Assembly: GCF_006175945.1 (NCBI RefSeq)
Contig: NZ_VAJL01000001.1
Location: forward strand, 1,054,001 to 1,118,000
Origin: Chryseobacterium mulctrae
Lineage (GTDB): Bacteria; Bacteroidota; Bacteroidia; Flavobacteriales; Weeksellaceae
Length of the DNA: 64,000 bases
Reading direction: 5' to 3'
Below are positions 20,476-28,764 of the stretch, piece by piece (the first letter of the stretch is position 1; every line of letters starts with the position of its first letter). The notes under the pieces are model-generated. The model made no database searches, was not told where the DNA came from, and saw nothing but the letters and a program-made list of their open reading frames with translations. The position numbers and the translations under genes are program-made.

Positions 20476-21210
20476 TCATGAAAAAACTTTCAAAAACTGG
20501 TCTTTGAAACTTCCTGAAACTTCAATTTCTGAATTGTCTGATAAAGTTGCCGTGCCACTTTTATGATATGATCTTACAAAATGAGTATTGATGATATGTG
20601 AGCGATGAACTCGAACGAAAGGGTTTTCTAACAAATCGTCAAAATGCTTTAAAAACCTGCAAACCATCTTCTTTGAACCGTCTGTAAGATAAACCTGCGT
20701 AAAATTTCCATCTGCCTGAAGTCTTACAATATCTTCCGTTTTTACGACATCAAAACCTTGTAATGTGGGGAGGATCAGTTGTTGTTTTTCTGGTTTTAAT
20801 TTTAAATTTTCCAGGAGGATTTTGTTTCGGTTTAATTCGTCTTTCTTTTCAATACTTTCTGCGACTTTATTCACTGCCAAAATCAATTCCTGAATATCGA
20901 TAGGTTTTAAAATATAATAACTCGCAGATTTGTTTAAAGCCTGCAGAGAATATTGCGAAAAAGCCGTGATAAAAATGGTTTCGTAAGAGAATTCTTTGGT
21001 GGCTTCCAAAACATCAAAAGCATTTCCGAAAGGCATTTCGACATCCAAAAAAACCAACTGTGGCTGATGTTCCGCAATCAAAGGAACGGCTTCTTTGATA
21101 TTTTCGGCTTCTCCCAAAATCTCAATTTGCGGACAGTATTTTGTGAGATAATTACTCAGAACTTCTCTTGCGATTTTTTCGTCGTCAACGATTACTGATT
21201 TTATTTTCAT
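20476..21210 (-). CDS. LytTR-family response regulator
   Basis: A 244-residue regulator. Receiver domain 1-120 has the acidic pocket DDE (9-11), phospho-acceptor Asp56 in FLDVEMP, and Lys in YILKPIDI. The LytTR DNA-binding domain covers about 145-244 ('IVRLQADGNFTQVYLTDG', 'FVRVHRSHIINTHFV'). It starts 26 nt after the stop of the LytS-type kinase gene, so the two form an operon. LytTR proteins bind two short direct repeats about 21-22 bp apart, and exactly such pairs (TTCACCAAGT) occur at three places just upstream in this window, which makes this protein the obvious candidate binder (inference). Confidence 0.92.
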   Translation of the reverse strand: MKIKSVIVDDEKIAREVLSNYLTKYCPQIEILGEAENIKEAVPLIAEHQPQLVFLDVEMPFGNAFDVLEATKEFSYETIFITAFSQYSLQALNKSASYYILKPIDIQELILAVNKVAESIEKKDELNRNKILLENLKLKPEKQQLILPTLQGFDVVKTEDIVRLQADGNFTQVYLTDGSKKMVCRFLKHFDDLLENPFVRVHRSHIINTHFVRSYHKSGTATLSDNSEIEVSGSFKDQFLKVFS

Positions 21211-21236: not shown

Positions 21237-23027
21237 TTAACTGTTTATTAATTTGAATGAAATTTCAACAAAAACACCTGGCTCTTCTTTTTTATCGGTG
21301 ATTTTGCACTGAATGTTTTGTTTATACAAATCATTCAATAAAGCAATTCTTTCCAAAGTATTTTTCATACCGCGACCTTTTCTGCTTTTTTGATGTTCGG
21401 TTTTTTGTTTTTTACTTTCTTCAATTCCGATGCCGTTATCCTCAATGAAAACATTAAGTGAATCGTTATTTTTTTCAAATTTTAAACTTAAAAATCCCTT
21501 ATCTGTTCTGTATCTTAGGCCGTGCCAAACTGCATTTTCTAAAAATGGCTGTATCAACATTCCCGGAACTTTTAGGCTTTGGGTATTTAAGCTTTCATCA
21601 ACTTCAATTTCGTAATCGAATTTATCGGAAAAACGTGTTTTTTCTAAAGCCAGATAATTCTGGAGCAAATCTAATTCCTGCTGAAACGGTATGAAATCTT
21701 CACTTGAATTTTCCATTACACCACGCATTAATTTTGAAAATTTGGTTAAATATTGATTGGCTTCCAGTTCATTATTGGTCGCAATAAAATGATTGACAGA
21801 ATTTAAACTGTTGAAAATAAAATGCGGATTCATCTCACGACGCAACGATTGTAACGCAATTTTTTTGTTTTTAATCTGAACTTTTTTCAAGGTTCTGAAA
21901 ATGAAAATTATTAAACCTGTCAGTAAAACCAATACACCAATTAAACTGTAATTAAAAATGTTTTTCTTGCGAATCAGCTCATCTTTCAGTTTTTTTTCCT
22001 GCTCAAGTTGTGAAATTCTTTGCTCAGTATCTTCAAGAATTTTATTATCAACTAAACTTCTGTCTTTGGAAACCAAATCAGGTAATTTTCCGAGAAAATC
22101 ACGGTAAAGCTGTACCGAAGCATTGGTGTTTTCAGAAATATTATAAAGACTGTCGAGTTTTTTTACACTTTTCTGCGCTTCAAGAGTGTGACCTTTCTGC
22201 AAAGCAATATCATAAGCATTTTTCAGTAAAACAATTGCTTCCTTTGGATCATTTTTTTTGATGTAAATTTCTGCGAGTTCCTGAATTTGCTCTACTTTTT
22301 TCTGAGAATTTTCTTTAACGAAATTCTCTTTTAAAACAGATTTTTTAGCTTCTATCGCTTTATCAAAATCTTTATTGTCGACATAAAAATTGGTCAATTT
22401 TTGATTGATTGCCAAAGCTTGTTGCGGCGCCTGTTCTTTCGAAATTTGGTAAGCTGTATTCAGGTTTTCTTCGGCTTTCGGAATATTTTTATTTTCAATA
22501 TTTACATCCGCCATTTGGCTATAACTTGCGGCAAGATCTTGTTTATTGTTTTCTTTTTCACTAATCTGAATATTATTCTGAATAGCTTCAGCTTTATTTT
22601 CTGACGCCGGAGAAGAAAGTCTTGAAGCGTCATTCGCATTCAAACTTCTTTTTGATTTAGAATATCCAATTTTTGAAGCCTTTTGGTAATTGCTTTGCGC
22701 AGATTTTAGCTTATTCTGATTTTCCTGAGACTGAGCCAGTTTTCGGATTACTTTTTCAAGATTTTGCTTGTCATTCAGCTTTTCGTAGAGGTTTTTAGAT
22801 TTTAGAAAATATTCTTCACTTTTAGAAAAATTTCTATCATTAAAAAATGTTTCGCCAATATTGTAATAAGAGTCGGCTTCTGCAGATTCGTTTTTGGTAT
22901 CAACGGCTTTTTTCAGTTTTTCGCTTTCAGCTTCAACTTCTTTCGATACATTATTAGTGCTTTGAGAATACAGGACATTCCCAAAAATCATAAATAAAAA
23001 GAGTATAAAAAACCGAAACATTTTCAT
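21237..23027 (-). CDS. TPR-containing sensor histidine kinase (LytS/His_kinase type)
   Basis: The start at 23027 (596 aa) gives a signal peptide MKMFRFFILFLFMIFGNVLYS and sits 4 nt after a TATCTTTG octamer. Residues about 30-330 are periplasmic tetratricopeptide-like helices ('SYYNIGETFFNDRNFSKSEE'). One transmembrane helix lies around 357-379 (YSLIGVLVLLTGLIIFIF). The cytoplasmic His_kinase domain carries phospho-acceptor His402 in MNPHFIFNSLNSV; the HATPase has 'ENAVWHG' and 'EDNGIGIEES'. Partner is the LytTR regulator 26 nt downstream. The TPR sensor suggests detection of a protein or peptide in the periplasm (inference). One of the TTCACCAAGT pairs lies in its divergent promoter region, so autoregulation is possible. 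Confidence 0.92.
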   Translation of the reverse strand: MKMFRFFILFLFMIFGNVLYSQSTNNVSKEVEAESEKLKKAVDTKNESAEADSYYNIGETFFNDRNFSKSEEYFLKSKNLYEKLNDKQNLEKVIRKLAQSQENQNKLKSAQSNYQKASKIGYSKSKRSLNANDASRLSSPASENKAEAIQNNIQISEKENNKQDLAASYSQMADVNIENKNIPKAEENLNTAYQISKEQAPQQALAINQKLTNFYVDNKDFDKAIEAKKSVLKENFVKENSQKKVEQIQELAEIYIKKNDPKEAIVLLKNAYDIALQKGHTLEAQKSVKKLDSLYNISENTNASVQLYRDFLGKLPDLVSKDRSLVDNKILEDTEQRISQLEQEKKLKDELIRKKNIFNYSLIGVLVLLTGLIIFIFRTLKKVQIKNKKIALQSLRREMNPHFIFNSLNSVNHFIATNNELEANQYLTKFSKLMRGVMENSSEDFIPFQQELDLLQNYLALEKTRFSDKFDYEIEVDESLNTQSLKVPGMLIQPFLENAVWHGLRYRTDKGFLSLKFEKNNDSLNVFIEDNGIGIEESKKQKTEHQKSRKGRGMKNTLERIALLNDLYKQNIQCKITDKKEEPGVFVEISFKLINS

Positions 23028-23031
23028 AAAA

Positions 23032-23060
23032 CAAAGATATACATATATATAGTTTACCAA
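23032..23060 (-). promoter_or_regulatory. LytS-type kinase operon promoter, leaderless
   Basis: TTG (23058-23060), 18-nt spacer, TATCTTTG (23032-23039) on the minus strand; only 4 nt (TTTT) separate the octamer from the ATG at 23027. The message should start at or next to the initiation codon. Confidence 0.6.
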
Positions 23061-23066
23061 AAACTA

Positions 23067-23097
23067 TTCACCAAGTGAAAATTGGTATTCACCAAGT
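23067..23097. promoter_or_regulatory. Paired direct repeat, LytTR-like operator A
   Basis: TTCACCAAGT at 23067-23076 and again at 23088-23097, start-to-start 21 bp, in the divergent region between the LytS-type kinase operon and the exported protein gene at 23158. TAAGTTTG (23126-23133) follows on the plus strand. Same pairing as the sites at 24903 and 25741. Confidence 0.75.
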
Positions 23098-23157
23098 TGA
23101 CTTTAAATTACTGTGAAAAGACCAATAAGTTTGTGATATAATTTAAACTTAATTCTC

Positions 23158-23733
23158 ATGAAAAATTTATCCTATTTAGTTCATTTTGCTTTGGTATTTT
23201 CAAGTTGCCAGATTTTTTCTCAAACCAAATTAATATCCTACAAAAGCCACAGTGGAGATATGAAATATTTTGAAAAAAGTATTGTGGAAGACAGTTACAA
23301 TACCAATTACTCTAATCTTGGAATGGCTCCTCAAAGGTATGTAACCAATTCAAAATTAGACAGCGTCATTATTATTGATGATAAAAAAAGCGTTATTGTT
23401 ACCTCAAACTACTGTAAAATCAGAGGAAATGCAGATCCTCAAAAATGGAAACCGGGAAGAGATACCGTTTACAATCATCCCGTTTTTTCCAAAGAAAATA
23501 TAGAAGCTGTAAAAAAAGAATTAAAAAGAGATTACAACTTTCAAAATGATATTGACAGCACCGTTTTTCTAAAATATGACAAGAAAACTAAAGAATACAA
23601 ACCAATTACGTCTAAAAAAGTTATAAAAACGGCTGAGATAAAATCTTTCAAGTCAAAAGAGGAAATCATGTATTTGCTTGTATTAAGTATCGCTGTGTTT
23701 GCGTCTGTTTTTATTTATAGAAAAAATCGTTAA
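23158..23733 (+). CDS. Unknown exported protein with C-terminal membrane anchor
   Basis: A 191-residue protein with an N-terminal signal peptide ('HFALVFSSCQIFSQ') and one C-terminal hydrophobic helix (MYLLVLSIAVFASVFIY) followed by RKNR, implying a periplasmic domain tethered to the inner membrane. No known domain recognised. It diverges from the LytS-type kinase operon. Its promoter, TAAGTTTG at 23126-23133, is preceded by the paired TTCACCAAGT repeats at 23067-23097, so it is probably controlled by the LytTR regulator. The following DoxX-like gene starts 10 nt after its stop (or overlaps it), so the two are co-transcribed. Confidence 0.75.
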   Translation: MKNLSYLVHFALVFSSCQIFSQTKLISYKSHSGDMKYFEKSIVEDSYNTNYSNLGMAPQRYVTNSKLDSVIIIDDKKSVIVTSNYCKIRGNADPQKWKPGRDTVYNHPVFSKENIEAVKKELKRDYNFQNDIDSTVFLKYDKKTKEYKPITSKKVIKTAEIKSFKSKEEIMYLLVLSIAVFASVFIYRKNR

Positions 23734-23743
23734 GAGTATTTCT

Positions 23744-24895
23744 GTGAAATTTAAATCAATATTTTTTAGACAGGCTACTGTTTTTTGCGGTGTTTTTTTT
23801 CTGCAGTTTATTCTATTTTTTCCGTTGAGTTTTTTTAATGATTTCCAGTTAAAAATTACGGATTTTATTTTTGGAGATTTTACAGGTTTTATTTTAGAAT
23901 TTTTCTTCAATAAAAAGAATAGCAGAATAGATTATAGCTCAGATAGTTATTCGATGTTGGTTTTAATCATCATTTTACTTCTTACGTCGATAATATTTTG
24001 TTTTCTGATCAAGGAAAAATGGAGTAAACATTTTCTATTAATAACAGAATATGTTTGTGTAATTTACATTTCTGTTGTATTGATAAAATACGGTGTTGAT
24101 AAAATTTTTAAAGCTCAATTTCCCACACCTGAACCGAATATTCTGTTCACAAGATTCGGAAATCTAGACAAAGATATTTTATTCTGGAGTACGATTGGGA
24201 CTTCTAAAATTTATAATAACATTACTGGTTCAGTTGAACTTCTTGCAGGAATTTTATTGTTATTCCAGCGTACCCGATTTTTGGGATTATTATTGGTAAT
24301 CATTAGTTTCGCTCAGATATTGATCATCAATATCAGTTTTGATATTTCTGTAAAATTATTTTCACTGATTTTACTTTTAATGACCTTATTTTTGGTCAGA
24401 AAAAGCGGATGGGAACTTATTTTGAAAATCATTAGTCTACCGAAAAAAACTTTTTTTGACCAAACTTTATTTCTTCCGTATAAAACCTTTTTTAAGATTC
24501 TTATTTTAGGAACTGTATTTATAAAAATCGGAATACCATATTTCAATAATGATTTCGATGCAGAAAATAAAGATAATTCATTCAATTTAACGGGATCTTA
24601 TCAAGTAATTTCTTCCGAAAGCCCTTACCAATATTTATTCTTTCATAAAGACCAATACCTGATTTTAATGGAAGGGTCTTCAGAAAAGATGGTTTCTTTT
24701 CATTATGATATTTCTCTTGATCATCAAATTATCCCTGAAGATAATCAACATCATATTTCCAAACATTTATTAATGAAAAATAAGAAAGACAGCACCATTA
24801 TTTTTTCTTTTGATCATCAAATGATTCATGCTAAACCTATTCAATACAAAAAAATGAATGTATTGCAGGATAGATTTCATTTTTTGGTTGATTGA
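23744..24895 (+). CDS. DoxX-like multi-pass membrane protein
   Basis: A GTG at 23744 gives 383 aa beginning M(V)KFKSIFFRQ, 10 nt after the upstream stop. The open frame also allows a TTG at 23699 inside the previous gene, which I consider less likely. Seven or so hydrophobic helices occur. The middle part 'VLIKYGVDKIFKAQFP', 'TSKIYNNITGSVELLAGILLLF' and 'RTRFLGLLLVIISFAQIL' resembles the DoxX/DoxX-like fold. The last ~90 residues are a soluble tail with 'SFNLTGSYQVIS' that is not part of DoxX. Probable operon partner of the preceding exported protein. Function unknown; DoxX proteins are loosely tied to redox and envelope stress. Confidence 0.72.
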   Translation: MKFKSIFFRQATVFCGVFFLQFILFFPLSFFNDFQLKITDFIFGDFTGFILEFFFNKKNSRIDYSSDSYSMLVLIIILLLTSIIFCFLIKEKWSKHFLLITEYVCVIYISVVLIKYGVDKIFKAQFPTPEPNILFTRFGNLDKDILFWSTIGTSKIYNNITGSVELLAGILLLFQRTRFLGLLLVIISFAQILIINISFDISVKLFSLILLLMTLFLVRKSGWELILKIISLPKKTFFDQTLFLPYKTFFKILILGTVFIKIGIPYFNNDFDAENKDNSFNLTGSYQVISSESPYQYLFFHKDQYLILMEGSSEKMVSFHYDISLDHQIIPEDNQHHISKHLLMKNKKDSTIIFSFDHQMIHAKPIQYKKMNVLQDRFHFLVD

Positions 24896-24902
24896 CCTTT
24901 CT

Positions 24903-24933
24903 TTCACCAAGTGAAAACTTCAGTTCACCAAGT
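24903..24933 (+). promoter_or_regulatory. Paired direct repeat, LytTR-like operator B
   Basis: TTCACCAAGT at 24903-24912 and 24924-24933, 21 bp start to start, upstream of the SIMPL gene. A -7-like TACTTTAG (24967-24974) begins 43 bp after the second repeat begins. Confidence 0.75.
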
Positions 24934-25016
24934 CTTCAAAATTTCAGTTTCAAATCGTGGTAATTTTACTTTAGAAATTTAAAACAAGAAATTTTAAAAT
25001 AATAAATACATACATT

Positions 25017-25691
25017 ATGAAACTGAAACACCTTTTATTAGTAGGAATCTTTGCAGCAGGAAGTTTGGTGAATGCGCAGGAAATCAAAAAAAACGCAATT
25101 GAAGTAACCGGAGTTGCCGAAATGGAAGTAGAACCGGATGAGATCATCTTTAGCATCGGTATAAAAGCCGACAACAAAAATCAATTGGCAAACAGCGAAA
25201 AACTTTTATTTGAAACACTGAAAAACAACGGTGTAAAAAATGAAGACATTAAATTTAAATCGATGTATCAGAATTTATATTCGAAAACAACGAAGTTTAC
25301 CAAAAGCTTTCAGTTTAAAGTTAATGCAAAAACCAATGTGAGTAAGCTTTTCGAAGATTTAAACCAAAAATGGGTAAGCAATCTGAATATTGCTGAAATC
25401 AAAAACACAAAGATTGCAGATTTCAGAAAAACGGTTAAAATCAATGCGTTGAAAGCGGCGAAAGAGAAAGCTGATTATCTTTTGGGAAGCATCAACAAAA
25501 AGACAGGAGATGCAATTGAAATCATTGAAATTGAAGATTACATGAGCGATTCTATTATGCCCGTTGCTTACAGAAGTAAAATGGCAAATGTACAGTTGGA
25601 AGCAGCCGACCAAAGTATGGATTATTCGTTCGACAACATCGAAAATATCAAGCTGAAATACAGCATCAAAACAAAATACGAAATTCTTTAG
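25017..25691 (+). CDS. SIMPL-domain (DUF541) periplasmic protein
   Basis: A 224-residue exported protein (signal peptide ending 'GSLVNAQ'). The start of the mature part, 'IEVTGVAEMEVEPDEIIFSIGI', is the hallmark of SIMPL/YggE-type proteins, and 'ALKAAKEKADYLLGSI' is the usual second conserved block. Known of the family: oligomeric periplasmic or surface proteins, with YggE affecting oxidative stress; no enzymatic activity is established. Upstream are paired TTCACCAAGT repeats (24903-24933) and, 43 bp after the second repeat start, TACTTTAG as a -7-like element. A hairpin terminator follows, so it is a separate unit in the suspected LytTR regulon. Confidence 0.9.
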   Translation: MKLKHLLLVGIFAAGSLVNAQEIKKNAIEVTGVAEMEVEPDEIIFSIGIKADNKNQLANSEKLLFETLKNNGVKNEDIKFKSMYQNLYSKTTKFTKSFQFKVNAKTNVSKLFEDLNQKWVSNLNIAEIKNTKIADFRKTVKINALKAAKEKADYLLGSINKKTGDAIEIIEIEDYMSDSIMPVAYRSKMANVQLEAADQSMDYSFDNIENIKLKYSIKTKYEIL

Positions 25692-25700
25692 TTTTTTAAG

Positions 25701-25728
25701 AGGCAGTCAGAAATGGCTGTCTTTTTTT
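25701..25728 (+). terminator. SIMPL gene terminator
   Basis: AGGCAGTCA-GAAA-TGGCTGTCT, 9-bp stem with two G-U pairs, then 7 T, right after the SIMPL stop. Confidence 0.8.
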
Positions 25729-25740
25729 CGCTTAAAAACT

Positions 25741-25771
25741 TCCACCAAGTGAAAACCTCGGTTCACCAAGT
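25741..25771 (+). promoter_or_regulatory. Paired direct repeat, LytTR-like operator C
   Basis: TCCACCAAGT at 25741-25750 and TTCACCAAGT at 25762-25771, 21 bp start to start, upstream of the MuiA-like gene. TACTGTAG (25805-25812) begins 43 bp after the second repeat begins, exactly as in operator B. Confidence 0.75.
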
Positions 25772-25831
25772 CTTCCGATTTTGGGTTTCTAATCAAAGTA
25801 ATATTACTGTAGAACTTTAAAATAATAAACT

Positions 25832-27427
25832 ATGCGACACTCTATTTTAATACTCATTTTGATGGTTTCGTTTTTTAAATCTCAGGAAATTAAAAAAGAA
25901 ATCGACGTAAAACAGGCGACTGTATTTTTGCAGGGCGCGAAAGTTTTTGGAAGCACAAACGTTACTCTTCAAAAAGGAAGAAACACCGTGAAAATCATTA
26001 ACCTTCCGAATGATCTGGATGAAAATACTTACAAAATCAATCTTGAAAAAAACACTACCCTTTTATCAATCACTCCGCAAAGCAATTATCTTAAAAACGA
26101 TGAACTGACCGATGGCGAAAAAAAACTGGATGATGAAAGAAAAAAAATTCAGAGACAGGTCAATTTATTGAATATTCAAATTAAAAATCTGACGGGCGAA
26201 CAAAATATCATTAATGATAATCTTAAAGTTTCAACCAACGATAAATCAACTCCCCAAGAACAGTTGATAAAACTGACTGAATTTTACAGAAAAAGAATGC
26301 TGGAAATCGATAATCAGGTTTTTCTTCTGACTGAACAAAAAACTACGCTTGATGAAAGCATTGCTAAAATCAACAAACAATTTTCTGAAGAACAGACTCA
26401 TAAAACACAAAACAGAAAAGAATTAATTCTTGAAATTCTTGCCGACAATGAAATGAATCTGAATCTTGGAGTAAGTTATATCGTTTCAAATGCAGGCTGG
26501 GTTCCATCTTATGATTTGAGAGCTTTGTCTACGAAGAAACCTTTAGAAATTGTCTATAAAGGAAAAATTTATCAGAAAACCGGACAAGACTGGAACAATG
26601 TGAAACTTTTCGTGTCCACTTACAGACCTTCTTACAACCAAAACAGACCAATTTTATCGCCATTGTACGTCGCAGAATATACGGCTTACAATAATGAGGA
26701 TGCAAAAGTAGGTTATATGCAAAAAGCGAAAGCAGAAATGTCGAATTCTTATCAGATGAGAGCAGAAACTGCTGCACCAAGTCAGATTCCTGTTGCGACA
26801 GTTTCGGATAATCAGATGAACATTCTGTATGAATTGAATTACAATCAAACCATCGTAAGTCAGGAAAAAGAGCAATATGTGATTTTAGATAAGAAAAATG
26901 TAGAAGCTAATTTCAAGTATCATACGGTTCCGAAACTAAACAATCAGGTTTTCTTAATGGCTTTTGTAAAAAACTGGCAAAATTTAAATCTTATTTCAGG
27001 TGAAGCGAATATTTATTTTGAAGATAACTATATCGGAAAAACCAATATTACAAGCAATTATGTGAAAGATGAATTCCCTATTTCTCTTGGTGTAGATGAA
27101 AGAATTGTGGCAAAACGTATCAAAATTGAAGATAAAACAGCTCAAAAATCTTTCAATTCTAATAAATGGGAAACAGAATCTTACGAAATATCCATTAGAA
27201 ATAATACGAAAGAAAGTATCGAGCTGGAGGTTTTAGACCAGATTCCATTAAGTGAAAATCAGAAAATCACAGTGAAAACTTTAAACATCGGCGACGGAGA
27301 TTTTGATATTAAAGCAGGAAGCATTCTTTGGAACAGAAAGATCAACAGCGGAGCTTCAGAAAAAATCAATTTCTCTTATGAAGTAAAATATCCGAAGGAA
27401 ATGCAGATTCAGTATTACAGTAGGTAA
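25832..27427 (+). CDS. DUF4139 / mucoidy inhibitor MuiA family protein
   Basis: A 531-residue exported protein (signal MRHSILILILMVSFFKS). N-terminal DUF4140-like domain about 20-110 ('IDVKQATVFLQGAKVFGST', 'NTVKIINLPNDLDENTYKI'). A coiled coil about 95-195 ('DDERKKIQRQVNLLNIQIKN'). C-terminal DUF4139 domain about 205-531 with 'NLGVSYIVSNAGWVPSYDLRA', 'YKGKIYQKTGQDWNNVKL' and closing 'NFSYEVKYPKEM'. Family knowledge is thin: named for the Rhizobium mucoidy inhibitor MuiA, molecular role unknown. Paired repeats (25741-25771) and TACTGTAG at 25805-25812 mirror the SIMPL promoter exactly, so co-regulation is likely. Confidence 0.9.
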   Translation: MRHSILILILMVSFFKSQEIKKEIDVKQATVFLQGAKVFGSTNVTLQKGRNTVKIINLPNDLDENTYKINLEKNTTLLSITPQSNYLKNDELTDGEKKLDDERKKIQRQVNLLNIQIKNLTGEQNIINDNLKVSTNDKSTPQEQLIKLTEFYRKRMLEIDNQVFLLTEQKTTLDESIAKINKQFSEEQTHKTQNRKELILEILADNEMNLNLGVSYIVSNAGWVPSYDLRALSTKKPLEIVYKGKIYQKTGQDWNNVKLFVSTYRPSYNQNRPILSPLYVAEYTAYNNEDAKVGYMQKAKAEMSNSYQMRAETAAPSQIPVATVSDNQMNILYELNYNQTIVSQEKEQYVILDKKNVEANFKYHTVPKLNNQVFLMAFVKNWQNLNLISGEANIYFEDNYIGKTNITSNYVKDEFPISLGVDERIVAKRIKIEDKTAQKSFNSNKWETESYEISIRNNTKESIELEVLDQIPLSENQKITVKTLNIGDGDFDIKAGSILWNRKINSGASEKINFSYEVKYPKEMQIQYYSR

Positions 27428-27543
27428 TTTCGAGTTTCGAGATACGGAATTCGAGTTATAACTTGGCTGATTCGTGTTGTGAATCTCAAATCTCAAACCT
27501 CGAATCTTGAATCTCGCAACCCGTAACTCATACCTCGTAACAA
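27428..27543. repeat. Heptamer repeat array, VWA upstream gap
   Basis: Left arm: TTTCGAG TTTCGAG ATACGGA ATTCGAG (27428-27455). Right arm: nine heptamers from 27481 (GAATCTC AAATCTC and so on) to 27543. The arms are inverted relative to each other, so the gap can fold as a loose hairpin of 7-bp units. The gap contains no gene. Confidence 0.7.
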
Positions 27544-27570
27544 AATAAAAAATCATTAAAAACATACAAT

Positions 27571-28764
27571 ATGAACACATTAAAAGTTTTAACAGTAACA
27601 GCAAGCGTATTCGCTTTTTTGAGTGCAGGTAAAATTTCAGATAACCGTTGCAGCAGCAAAGCCAACGAAAGAGAAATTATAGAGAGTAACATTTCAAATC
27701 AACCACAAATTTTGGTTTCAAAAGACAATAAAATTCAGGTTGCTTTGCTTTTGGATACTTCCAACAGTATGGATGGATTAATCGATCAGGTAAAGTCAAG
27801 ACTTTGGAATATCGTTAATACACTGACGACTTTAAAATATAACGGACAAGCACCACAAGTGGAAATTGCTCTTTATGAATACGGAAATGATGGTTTAAAA
27901 GATGAAAATTACATCAGACAAGTAACTCCGTTAACGCAAGATTTAGATTTAGTTTCGGAAAAACTTTTCGCTTTAAGAACCAATGGCGGAAATGAATATT
28001 GCGGAGCAGTCATTCGTGATGCATCATCCAATTTGAAATGGGATGGAAACGAAAAAAGTATGAAACTTATTTACATCGCCGGAAATGAACCTTTCGACCA
28101 AGGAAAAATCAGTTATAAAGATGTTATTTCTAAAGCTAAAACCAAAAACATTTACACGAATACGATCTTCTGCGGAAGCCGTGAAGAAGGCATTCAATCG
28201 CATTGGCAAAACGGAGCGAGCTTAGGAGACGGAAAATATTTTAATATTGACAGCGACCAAAAAGTAATTTATATTGAAACGCCTTATGATGTGAAAATTT
28301 CACAATACAATTCCAAGCTAAACGACACTTATATTTCTTACGGAAGCCGTGGTTATGAAATGAAAAATAAGCAAACGACCCAAGATTCAAATGCAGAAAT
28401 GCAATCTGCTTCGAATGCTGTTGAAAGAGCAGTAAGTAAGTCGAAGAAAAACGCTTACAAAAATGATCATTGGGATTTGGTAGATAAAGTTGAAAAAGAC
28501 AAAAGCTACATTTCATCAATAAAAGAGGATGAATTACCTTCTGAATTAAAAGGAAAAAGCAAAGATGAAATCAAAAAAATTGTGGTTCAAAAATCTGCAG
28601 ACCGAGATAAAATTCAAAAAGAAATTGAAGTTCTCGCAAGAAAAAGACAGGAATTTATTGATATTGAAACCAAAAAACGAGGAAGTTCTGAAGGCGATGA
28701 CTTAGGAAAAGCGATTGAGAGATCACTATTGGAAATCAGCAAAAAAAATGGTTATAGTTTATAA
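27571..28764 (+). CDS. VWA-domain exported protein
   Basis: A 397-residue protein with an N-terminal hydrophobic export signal ('KVLTVTASVFAFLSAG'). A von Willebrand factor A domain spans about 55-245, with the metal-ion-dependent adhesion site DTSNSMDG and downstream 'LRTNGGNEYCG' and 'KLIYIAGNEPFDQG'. The remaining ~150 residues are a highly charged Lys/Glu helical region that may form a coiled coil. VWA proteins commonly act as metal-dependent protein-binding platforms. It follows the MuiA-like gene by 143 bp on the same strand; the gap is filled by heptamer repeats and has no paired LytTR-like site, so it may be read through from upstream or have its own promoter. Confidence 0.88.
   Translation: MNTLKVLTVTASVFAFLSAGKISDNRCSSKANEREIIESNISNQPQILVSKDNKIQVALLLDTSNSMDGLIDQVKSRLWNIVNTLTTLKYNGQAPQVEIALYEYGNDGLKDENYIRQVTPLTQDLDLVSEKLFALRTNGGNEYCGAVIRDASSNLKWDGNEKSMKLIYIAGNEPFDQGKISYKDVISKAKTKNIYTNTIFCGSREEGIQSHWQNGASLGDGKYFNIDSDQKVIYIETPYDVKISQYNSKLNDTYISYGSRGYEMKNKQTTQDSNAEMQSASNAVERAVSKSKKNAYKNDHWDLVDKVEKDKSYISSIKEDELPSELKGKSKDEIKKIVVQKSADRDKIQKEIEVLARKRQEFIDIETKKRGSSEGDDLGKAIERSLLEISKKNGYSL

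Follow-up and report, generated by a model that had tools for sequence, protein, structure and literature searches.

LytTR response regulators are described as binding to sites built of two repeats of 9–11 nt that lie 11–13 nt apart, and their LytTR domains as having no common DNA consensus (PMC4847170). In YpdA/YpdB of Escherichia coli, one of the closest described systems, a LytS-type kinase is paired with a LytTR regulator, and the YpdB target promoter carries a direct repeat of the 10-nt motif GGCATTTCAT (PMC4847170). The same pairing of genes, together with a 10-nt direct repeat of another half-site, was found in Chryseobacterium mulctrae, in a stretch of 64,000 nt on contig NZ_VAJL01000001.1 (positions 1,054,001 to 1,118,000, forward strand; this whole stretch is called the window below). 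Here the kinase gene and then the regulator gene are read on the minus strand, and the target genes are divergent on the plus strand. Sequence comparison predicts that the neighbouring LytTR regulator binds to the repeats and probably activates a few, mostly local genes for likely exported proteins, which have a -7-like box at +58 or +59 from the start of the site.

Paired site 1 (TTCACCAAGT-N11-TTCACCAAGT; 23067..23097, plus strand) lies upstream of the exported-protein gene and also, by a few bp, upstream of the -33-like element of the kinase operon on the other strand. Paired site 2, again TTCACCAAGT-N11-TTCACCAAGT (24903..24933, plus strand), lies 5′ of the SIMPL gene, and paired site 3 (25741..25771, plus strand) lies 5′ of the MuiA-family gene; the sites thereby stand before genes 1, 3 and 4 of the five divergent plus-strand genes. 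Sites 1 and 2 are exact and site 3 has one mismatch, its first half being TCCACCAAGT. All three consist of 10-nt repeats around an 11-nt spacer (10-11-10) with 21 bp from start to start, which bears out the three 21-bp-spaced pairs of the original prediction, the third with its one mismatch. The shuffled window sequence contained no pair. In the whole 4.87 Mb genome these three were the only sites at up to two mismatches, all of them local; the random scatter through the genome that had been named in advance as an argument against the prediction was therefore not seen. At three mismatches, two extra matches were obtained, and the reversed-motif control gave one. The MuiA paralogue of this genome (28% identity) is without a site.

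Two observations concern other LytTR loci of the same genome. A paralogous kinase/LytTR regulator pair has, ~0.85 kb upstream of it, a perfect 21-bp pair, TTTACCGATG-N11-TTTACCGATG (L244:9837-9867, about C1:2166836); this is the one further clean 21-bp pair among the paralogous LytTR loci, which suggests a sister site with a different half-site. AGTTAGA-type heptamers occur in tandem at L245:3202-3250, near another LytTR gene.

For comparison, named genomes were scanned for the regulator, and the best 80 loci of a longer candidate list, 78 of which are titled Chryseobacterium, were analysed. Identity to the window proteins was 89–98% (median 93) for the regulator and 70–94% (median 76) for the kinase, and within the kinase 63–95% (median 71) for the sensor half versus 77–94% (median 85) for the catalytic half. 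The sensor half diverges faster than both the catalytic half and the regulator, as if the input changes and the output stays. The 80 loci contained 213 sites at up to three mismatches, with three sites at 46 loci, two at 26, four at five and one at three, and the reversed motif gave no match. On the non-target side of the regulator, an equal length of sequence (786 kb) contained no site. When spacers of 5 to 19 were allowed, 208 of the 216 half-site pairs had a spacer of 11, and the form of the window sites agrees with the published LytTR rule for repeats and spacer.

The genes that follow the sites are of several kinds. Counted by site, the nearest downstream long open reading frame (ORF) encoded a SIMPL protein in 88 cases (tandem sites included), a MuiA-family protein in 39, a second SIMPL-domain protein (c2) in 25, a VWA protein in 18, an amidohydrolase-like protein (c4) in 16, the exported protein of the window in 10, another VWA protein (c6) in seven and a small lipoprotein-like protein (c7) in five; two further ORFs were singletons, and three sites had no such ORF. 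By a simple hydropathy proxy, 190 of the 210 downstream proteins had a signal-like N-terminus, versus 25 of 50 window ORFs. At the kinase-adjacent promoter (loci L035-L114), the gene varies by lineage and the site stays.

The sigma-A -7 consensus of Flavobacterium psychrophilum is given as TAnnTTTG at -12 to -5 (PMC9723704), and -7 boxes were scored out of 6 against TAnnTTTG by their offset from the site start. Site 1 is followed at +59 by TAAGTTTG (23126..23133, plus strand; 6/6), a box absent from the original prediction, site 2 at +58 by TAATTTTA (24961..24968, plus strand; 5/6) and site 3 at +58 by TAATATTA (25799..25806, plus strand; 4/6). The original prediction had instead proposed as -7 boxes the octamers TACTTTAG and TACTGTAG, 43 bp from the second repeat of sites 2 and 3, respectively. 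That distance is right (+64 from the site start), and in the window the octamers tie with the +58 boxes (likewise 5/6 at site 2 and 4/6 at site 3), but across genomes the +58/+59 position is better supported. The +64 octamer scored at least 5/6 in only 16 of 88 SIMPL, six of 39 MuiA and two of 18 VWA promoters, versus 73, 38 and 18 at +58/+59, and is regarded as a weaker candidate only. This better-supported -7 box starts at +58 or +59, and TACTTTAG starts 6 bp further downstream. The best offset was +58 for SIMPL, MuiA and VWA genes (TAATTTTA type) and +59 for the first gene of the window, c2 and c6 (TAAGTTTG type), and over the eight gene groups of the 80 loci a box scoring at least 5/6 stood at +58/+59 for 171 of 208 sites, five sites being unscored. 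A box at this offset would place the site at about -70 to -40.

Co-occurrence was examined in 216 genomes of the family, using the regulator without its first Met as query and counting as a site any match with up to three mismatches to a refined motif anywhere in the genome; among the matches listed, the sites lay at the regulator locus. The regulator was present at 65% identity or more in 65 of the 216 genomes, the next matches being at most 44% identical. A site was present in 64 of the 65 genomes with the regulator versus two of the 151 without it (Fisher p about 2e-51, relatedness uncorrected); these two counts, like the reversed control in the Flavobacterium-like genus and the class-level count of nine given below, were tallied by hand. 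The association of sites with regulator orthologues, proposed as a check of the original prediction, was thus recovered, and sites retained in genomes lacking the LytTR gene, which were to count against it, were nearly none. The regulon is supported as LytTR-linked and is wider than first thought. Among genomes of the same genus, a site was present in 36 of 36 in a near-kin sample (own genome included) and in 61 of 69 in a wider sample. The SIMPL gene was missing (E 1e-15) in five of five other-genus genomes with the regulator, and SIMPL is therefore not a fixed part of the module.

The three discordant genomes were inspected. In the only miss (G137; regulator identity 64–65%), the same place is taken, in unchanged orientation, by a 21-bp-spaced pair of TTTACCCATT, and TAGCTTTG stands at +59; TTCACCAAGT, TTTACCCATT, TTCACTAAGT and TTCCCTAA are half-site variants. 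In one genome with a site and without the regulator (G128), the contig begins within the kinase gene, so the regulator probably lies in an assembly gap. In the other (G196), the match has three mismatches and apparently falls within an ORF, and the regulator, SIMPL and MuiA were not found in that genome; this match is probably a chance one. In a further genome (G253), the kinase and regulator retain a site of their own, and a SIMPL/VWA block at a distance of 2.0 Mb on the contig has two. The two sites of the block have been kept at this distance, indicating that the sites outlast a break of linkage. A decaying module was observed at locus L185 (G228), where the regulator has an in-frame stop and one site is left, before the MuiA gene; the kinase and SIMPL there overlap at a junction, and each aligns only without its N-terminal part.

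Outside this family sample, 249 genomes of a genus labelled Flavobacterium-like (the label is an inferred one) were searched with a genus-adjusted site pattern. The regulator was present in 48 of them, and a site in 45 of these 48 versus 12 of the 201 others. As the reversed-motif control matched in 20 of the 249 genomes, 17 of them among the same 201, the 12 are no more than the control and sites are nearly absent there. The three misses have sites with four mismatches at the expected place, and in the search of the order all 15 matching Flavobacterium-like genomes had sites at up to four mismatches. The promoter phase recurs in this genus, where all 28 sites had a box of at least 5/6 at +58/+59, 25 of which were perfect at +58. 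At class level, 33 genomes outside the order matched, and 20 of these were examined. A TTCACCAAGT-like pair (up to four mismatches) was at the expected place in nine, and in seven of the nine VWA or c2 was the nearest target identified. Repeat spacings of 14 to 31 upstream of the kinase were also compared independently of sequence. In a set of 15 distant loci that belong to the order and exclude G068 and the paralogue loci of the same genus, the 21-bp spacing was the commonest, occurring at five versus 0–2 at each of the 17 other spacings. It was also the commonest at the 20 class-level loci, occurring at eight versus 0–3 at other spacings; a few of these drifted 21-bp pairs may be chance.

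The sites, their fixed spacer and single orientation, their co-occurrence with the regulator, a promoter phase that is constant in most target groups and the retention of sites in the relocated block were computed directly. Activation by the local regulator is the best reading because the 10-11-10 form is reported for LytTR regulators and AgrA of Staphylococcus aureus also acts from paired direct repeats. Several observations weigh against it. No site of the amidohydrolase-like group is followed by a box at +58/+59 (0 of 16), and c7 has one at only two of five sites. At 11 of the 20 other-order loci there was no TTCACCAAGT-like pair with up to four mismatches at the expected place, and 10 of the 15 distant loci of the order had no 21-bp repeat pair. 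The eight genomes of the same genus that have neither regulator nor site also lack SIMPL (E 1e-15); gain and loss mostly concern the module as a whole, and co-occurrence consequently does not single out the regulator among the module genes. The window genome has eight LytTR genes, another of which could contribute. One genome (G581) has a good site (L235:6896-6926), with TACTTTAA at +58 and upstream of small exported-protein genes, but no close regulator orthologue.

The last three points would also fit a different binder, either another LytTR protein or an unrelated factor, with the local kinase-regulator pair merely travelling with the sites. The co-occurrence with this particular regulator is, however, strong in two genera, the half-site has drifted where the regulator diverged, and the regulator alone among the seven module genes has a recognised DNA-binding domain. 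Another binder thus seems unlikely. It could also be supposed that the regulator does bind the sites and represses, or chiefly governs its own kinase operon, given that only a few bp separate site 1 from the kinase promoter's -33-like element and that at least one site lies within 150 bp of the kinase start at all 80 loci. Yet all 213 sites face the target genes, on the target strand and on the target side of the kinase and regulator, with none passing the kinase start; they lie upstream of the -33 region, at a distance from the target -7 box that is constant in most groups, the usual place of an activator, and at many loci one to three additional sites occur away from the kinase. Repression or autoregulation as the chief role is very unlikely on this evidence. 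A duplicated promoter cassette or repeat element, alike through copying and bound by no regulator, would fit the TAATTTTAC-type sequence that SIMPL, MuiA and VWA promoters have in common beyond the site, but is hardly credible when conservation of the half-sites greatly exceeds that of most of the 11-bp spacer and the site and its phasing recur across genera and orders and before unrelated genes. Conservation of the site as mere inheritance with an orthologous target gene was also considered and is disfavoured, since unrelated genes follow the sites across lineages and the MuiA paralogue is siteless.

In the preferred reading, activation by the local regulator, the predicted binder is the LytTR response regulator encoded at 20476..21210 (minus strand). 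Its product matches PF00072 (62.2 bits) and PF04397 (45.2 bits), both over the cut-off, and D56 is a candidate phospho-acceptor. The adjoining gene (21237..23027, minus strand) encodes a LytS-type histidine kinase with an N-terminal hydrophobic stretch, a TPR region, one predicted membrane span (about 356-383) and a PF06580 match of 77.6 bits (cut-off 25.2); the kinase and regulator labels of the original prediction were accordingly kept. A consensus-like promoter of the kinase operon, TTTG-N18-TATCTTTG, was read from the sequence beside site 1 (23032..23061, minus strand). Were its box at -12 to -5, the start would fall at or next to the first ATG (23027; window 23025-23061), which suggests a leaderless or near-leaderless mRNA. 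The kinase would sense an envelope signal through its predicted periplasmic TPR region, anchored by one membrane span, and then phosphorylate the regulator. Two regulator molecules would occupy the two half-sites, which are two helix turns apart; from this position, about -70 to -40 relative to the predicted start, the bound regulator would recruit RNA polymerase.

The first likely target gene in the window (23158..23733, plus strand) encodes a predicted exported protein of 191 aa with no significant Pfam or NCBIfam family. The gene following it (23744..24895, plus strand; GTG start assumed) encodes a probable membrane protein without a family match and is likely co-transcribed with it; the label DoxX-like, given earlier to this product, was dropped, as there was no Pfam match at E 0.1 and no NCBIfam match at 0.01. 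The SIMPL protein (25017..25691, plus strand), a likely target with a signal-like N-terminus, and the MuiA-family protein (25832..27427, plus strand), another likely target, had been named correctly, the former matching PF04402 and the latter TIGR02231 at 256.4 bits (cut-off 112.6) as well as PF13600 and PF13598. The VWA protein (27571..28764, plus strand) matches PF13519 (VWA_2) under the Pfam cut-off, and its gene has no site of its own in the window; in other genomes the VWA gene adjoins a site, and in other genera it is a common neighbour of the module. The gap between the MuiA and VWA genes (window 27428-27570) is packed with CTCGAATC/TCGAGTT-like repetitive sequence.

A broader picture, which we offer only tentatively and as a somewhat doubtful one, is that of a class-wide envelope module of Bacteroidia with a TPR kinase and a LytTR regulator. 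The phased 10-11-10 promoter would be fixed and the exported cargo (SIMPL, VWA, MuiA, amidohydrolase-like, lipoprotein-like) swapped by lineage, half-site and regulator would drift together, and loss of the module would perhaps be selected beside an antibiotic-producing competitor. In a coevolution study of F. johnsoniae, five of five coevolved lines are described as mutated in FJOH_RS09515 (LytTR) or the adjacent kinase gene FJOH_RS09520 (PMC10197871). Among 15 Flavobacterium-like orthologues (start codons assumed), base 46 was the reported G in 11, and base 44 was the reported C in one. That FJOH_RS09515/09520 might be this module is unproven and partly contradicted by base 44, and it may serve as a lead only.

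Searches of the open-licence PMC literature listed no description of this regulon or its half-site. In our best reading, the paired LytTR sites are of a known kind, and the regulon of predicted exported SIMPL, MuiA and VWA proteins is an undescribed, mostly local one. Now that site, promoter phase, regulator and gene set are defined, the function and signal of the SIMPL, MuiA and VWA proteins of the locus become directly testable, and the half-sites drifting with their regulators form a natural series from which the DNA code of LytTR domains could be read. The closest NCBIfam matches of the regulator are BtsR PRK11697 (102.4 of 246 bits) and LytR PRK14084 (93.4 of 375 bits), yet it stands outside both equivalog families because the scores are far under the curated cut-offs. 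LytTR Regulatory Systems reportedly have regulators without a receiver domain; LytTR is common to both, and the regulator here has a receiver domain and a kinase partner. Such systems have been presented as a potential new class of sensory system (PMC6193735). AgrA is described as a LytTR activator on two direct repeats upstream of promoters, with an FhRhHRS-type motif that is present in the window regulator as FVRVHRS; its signal and genes differ from those here, and the likeness drawn is one of repeat layout (PMC4227749). YpdA/YpdB is described as having a very small regulon with yhjX as the sole direct target, and the regulon here is also small; the target of YpdA/YpdB is a putative transporter and its signal pyruvate, whereas the present system combines a TPR kinase with predicted exported SIMPL, MuiA and VWA targets (PMC4847170).

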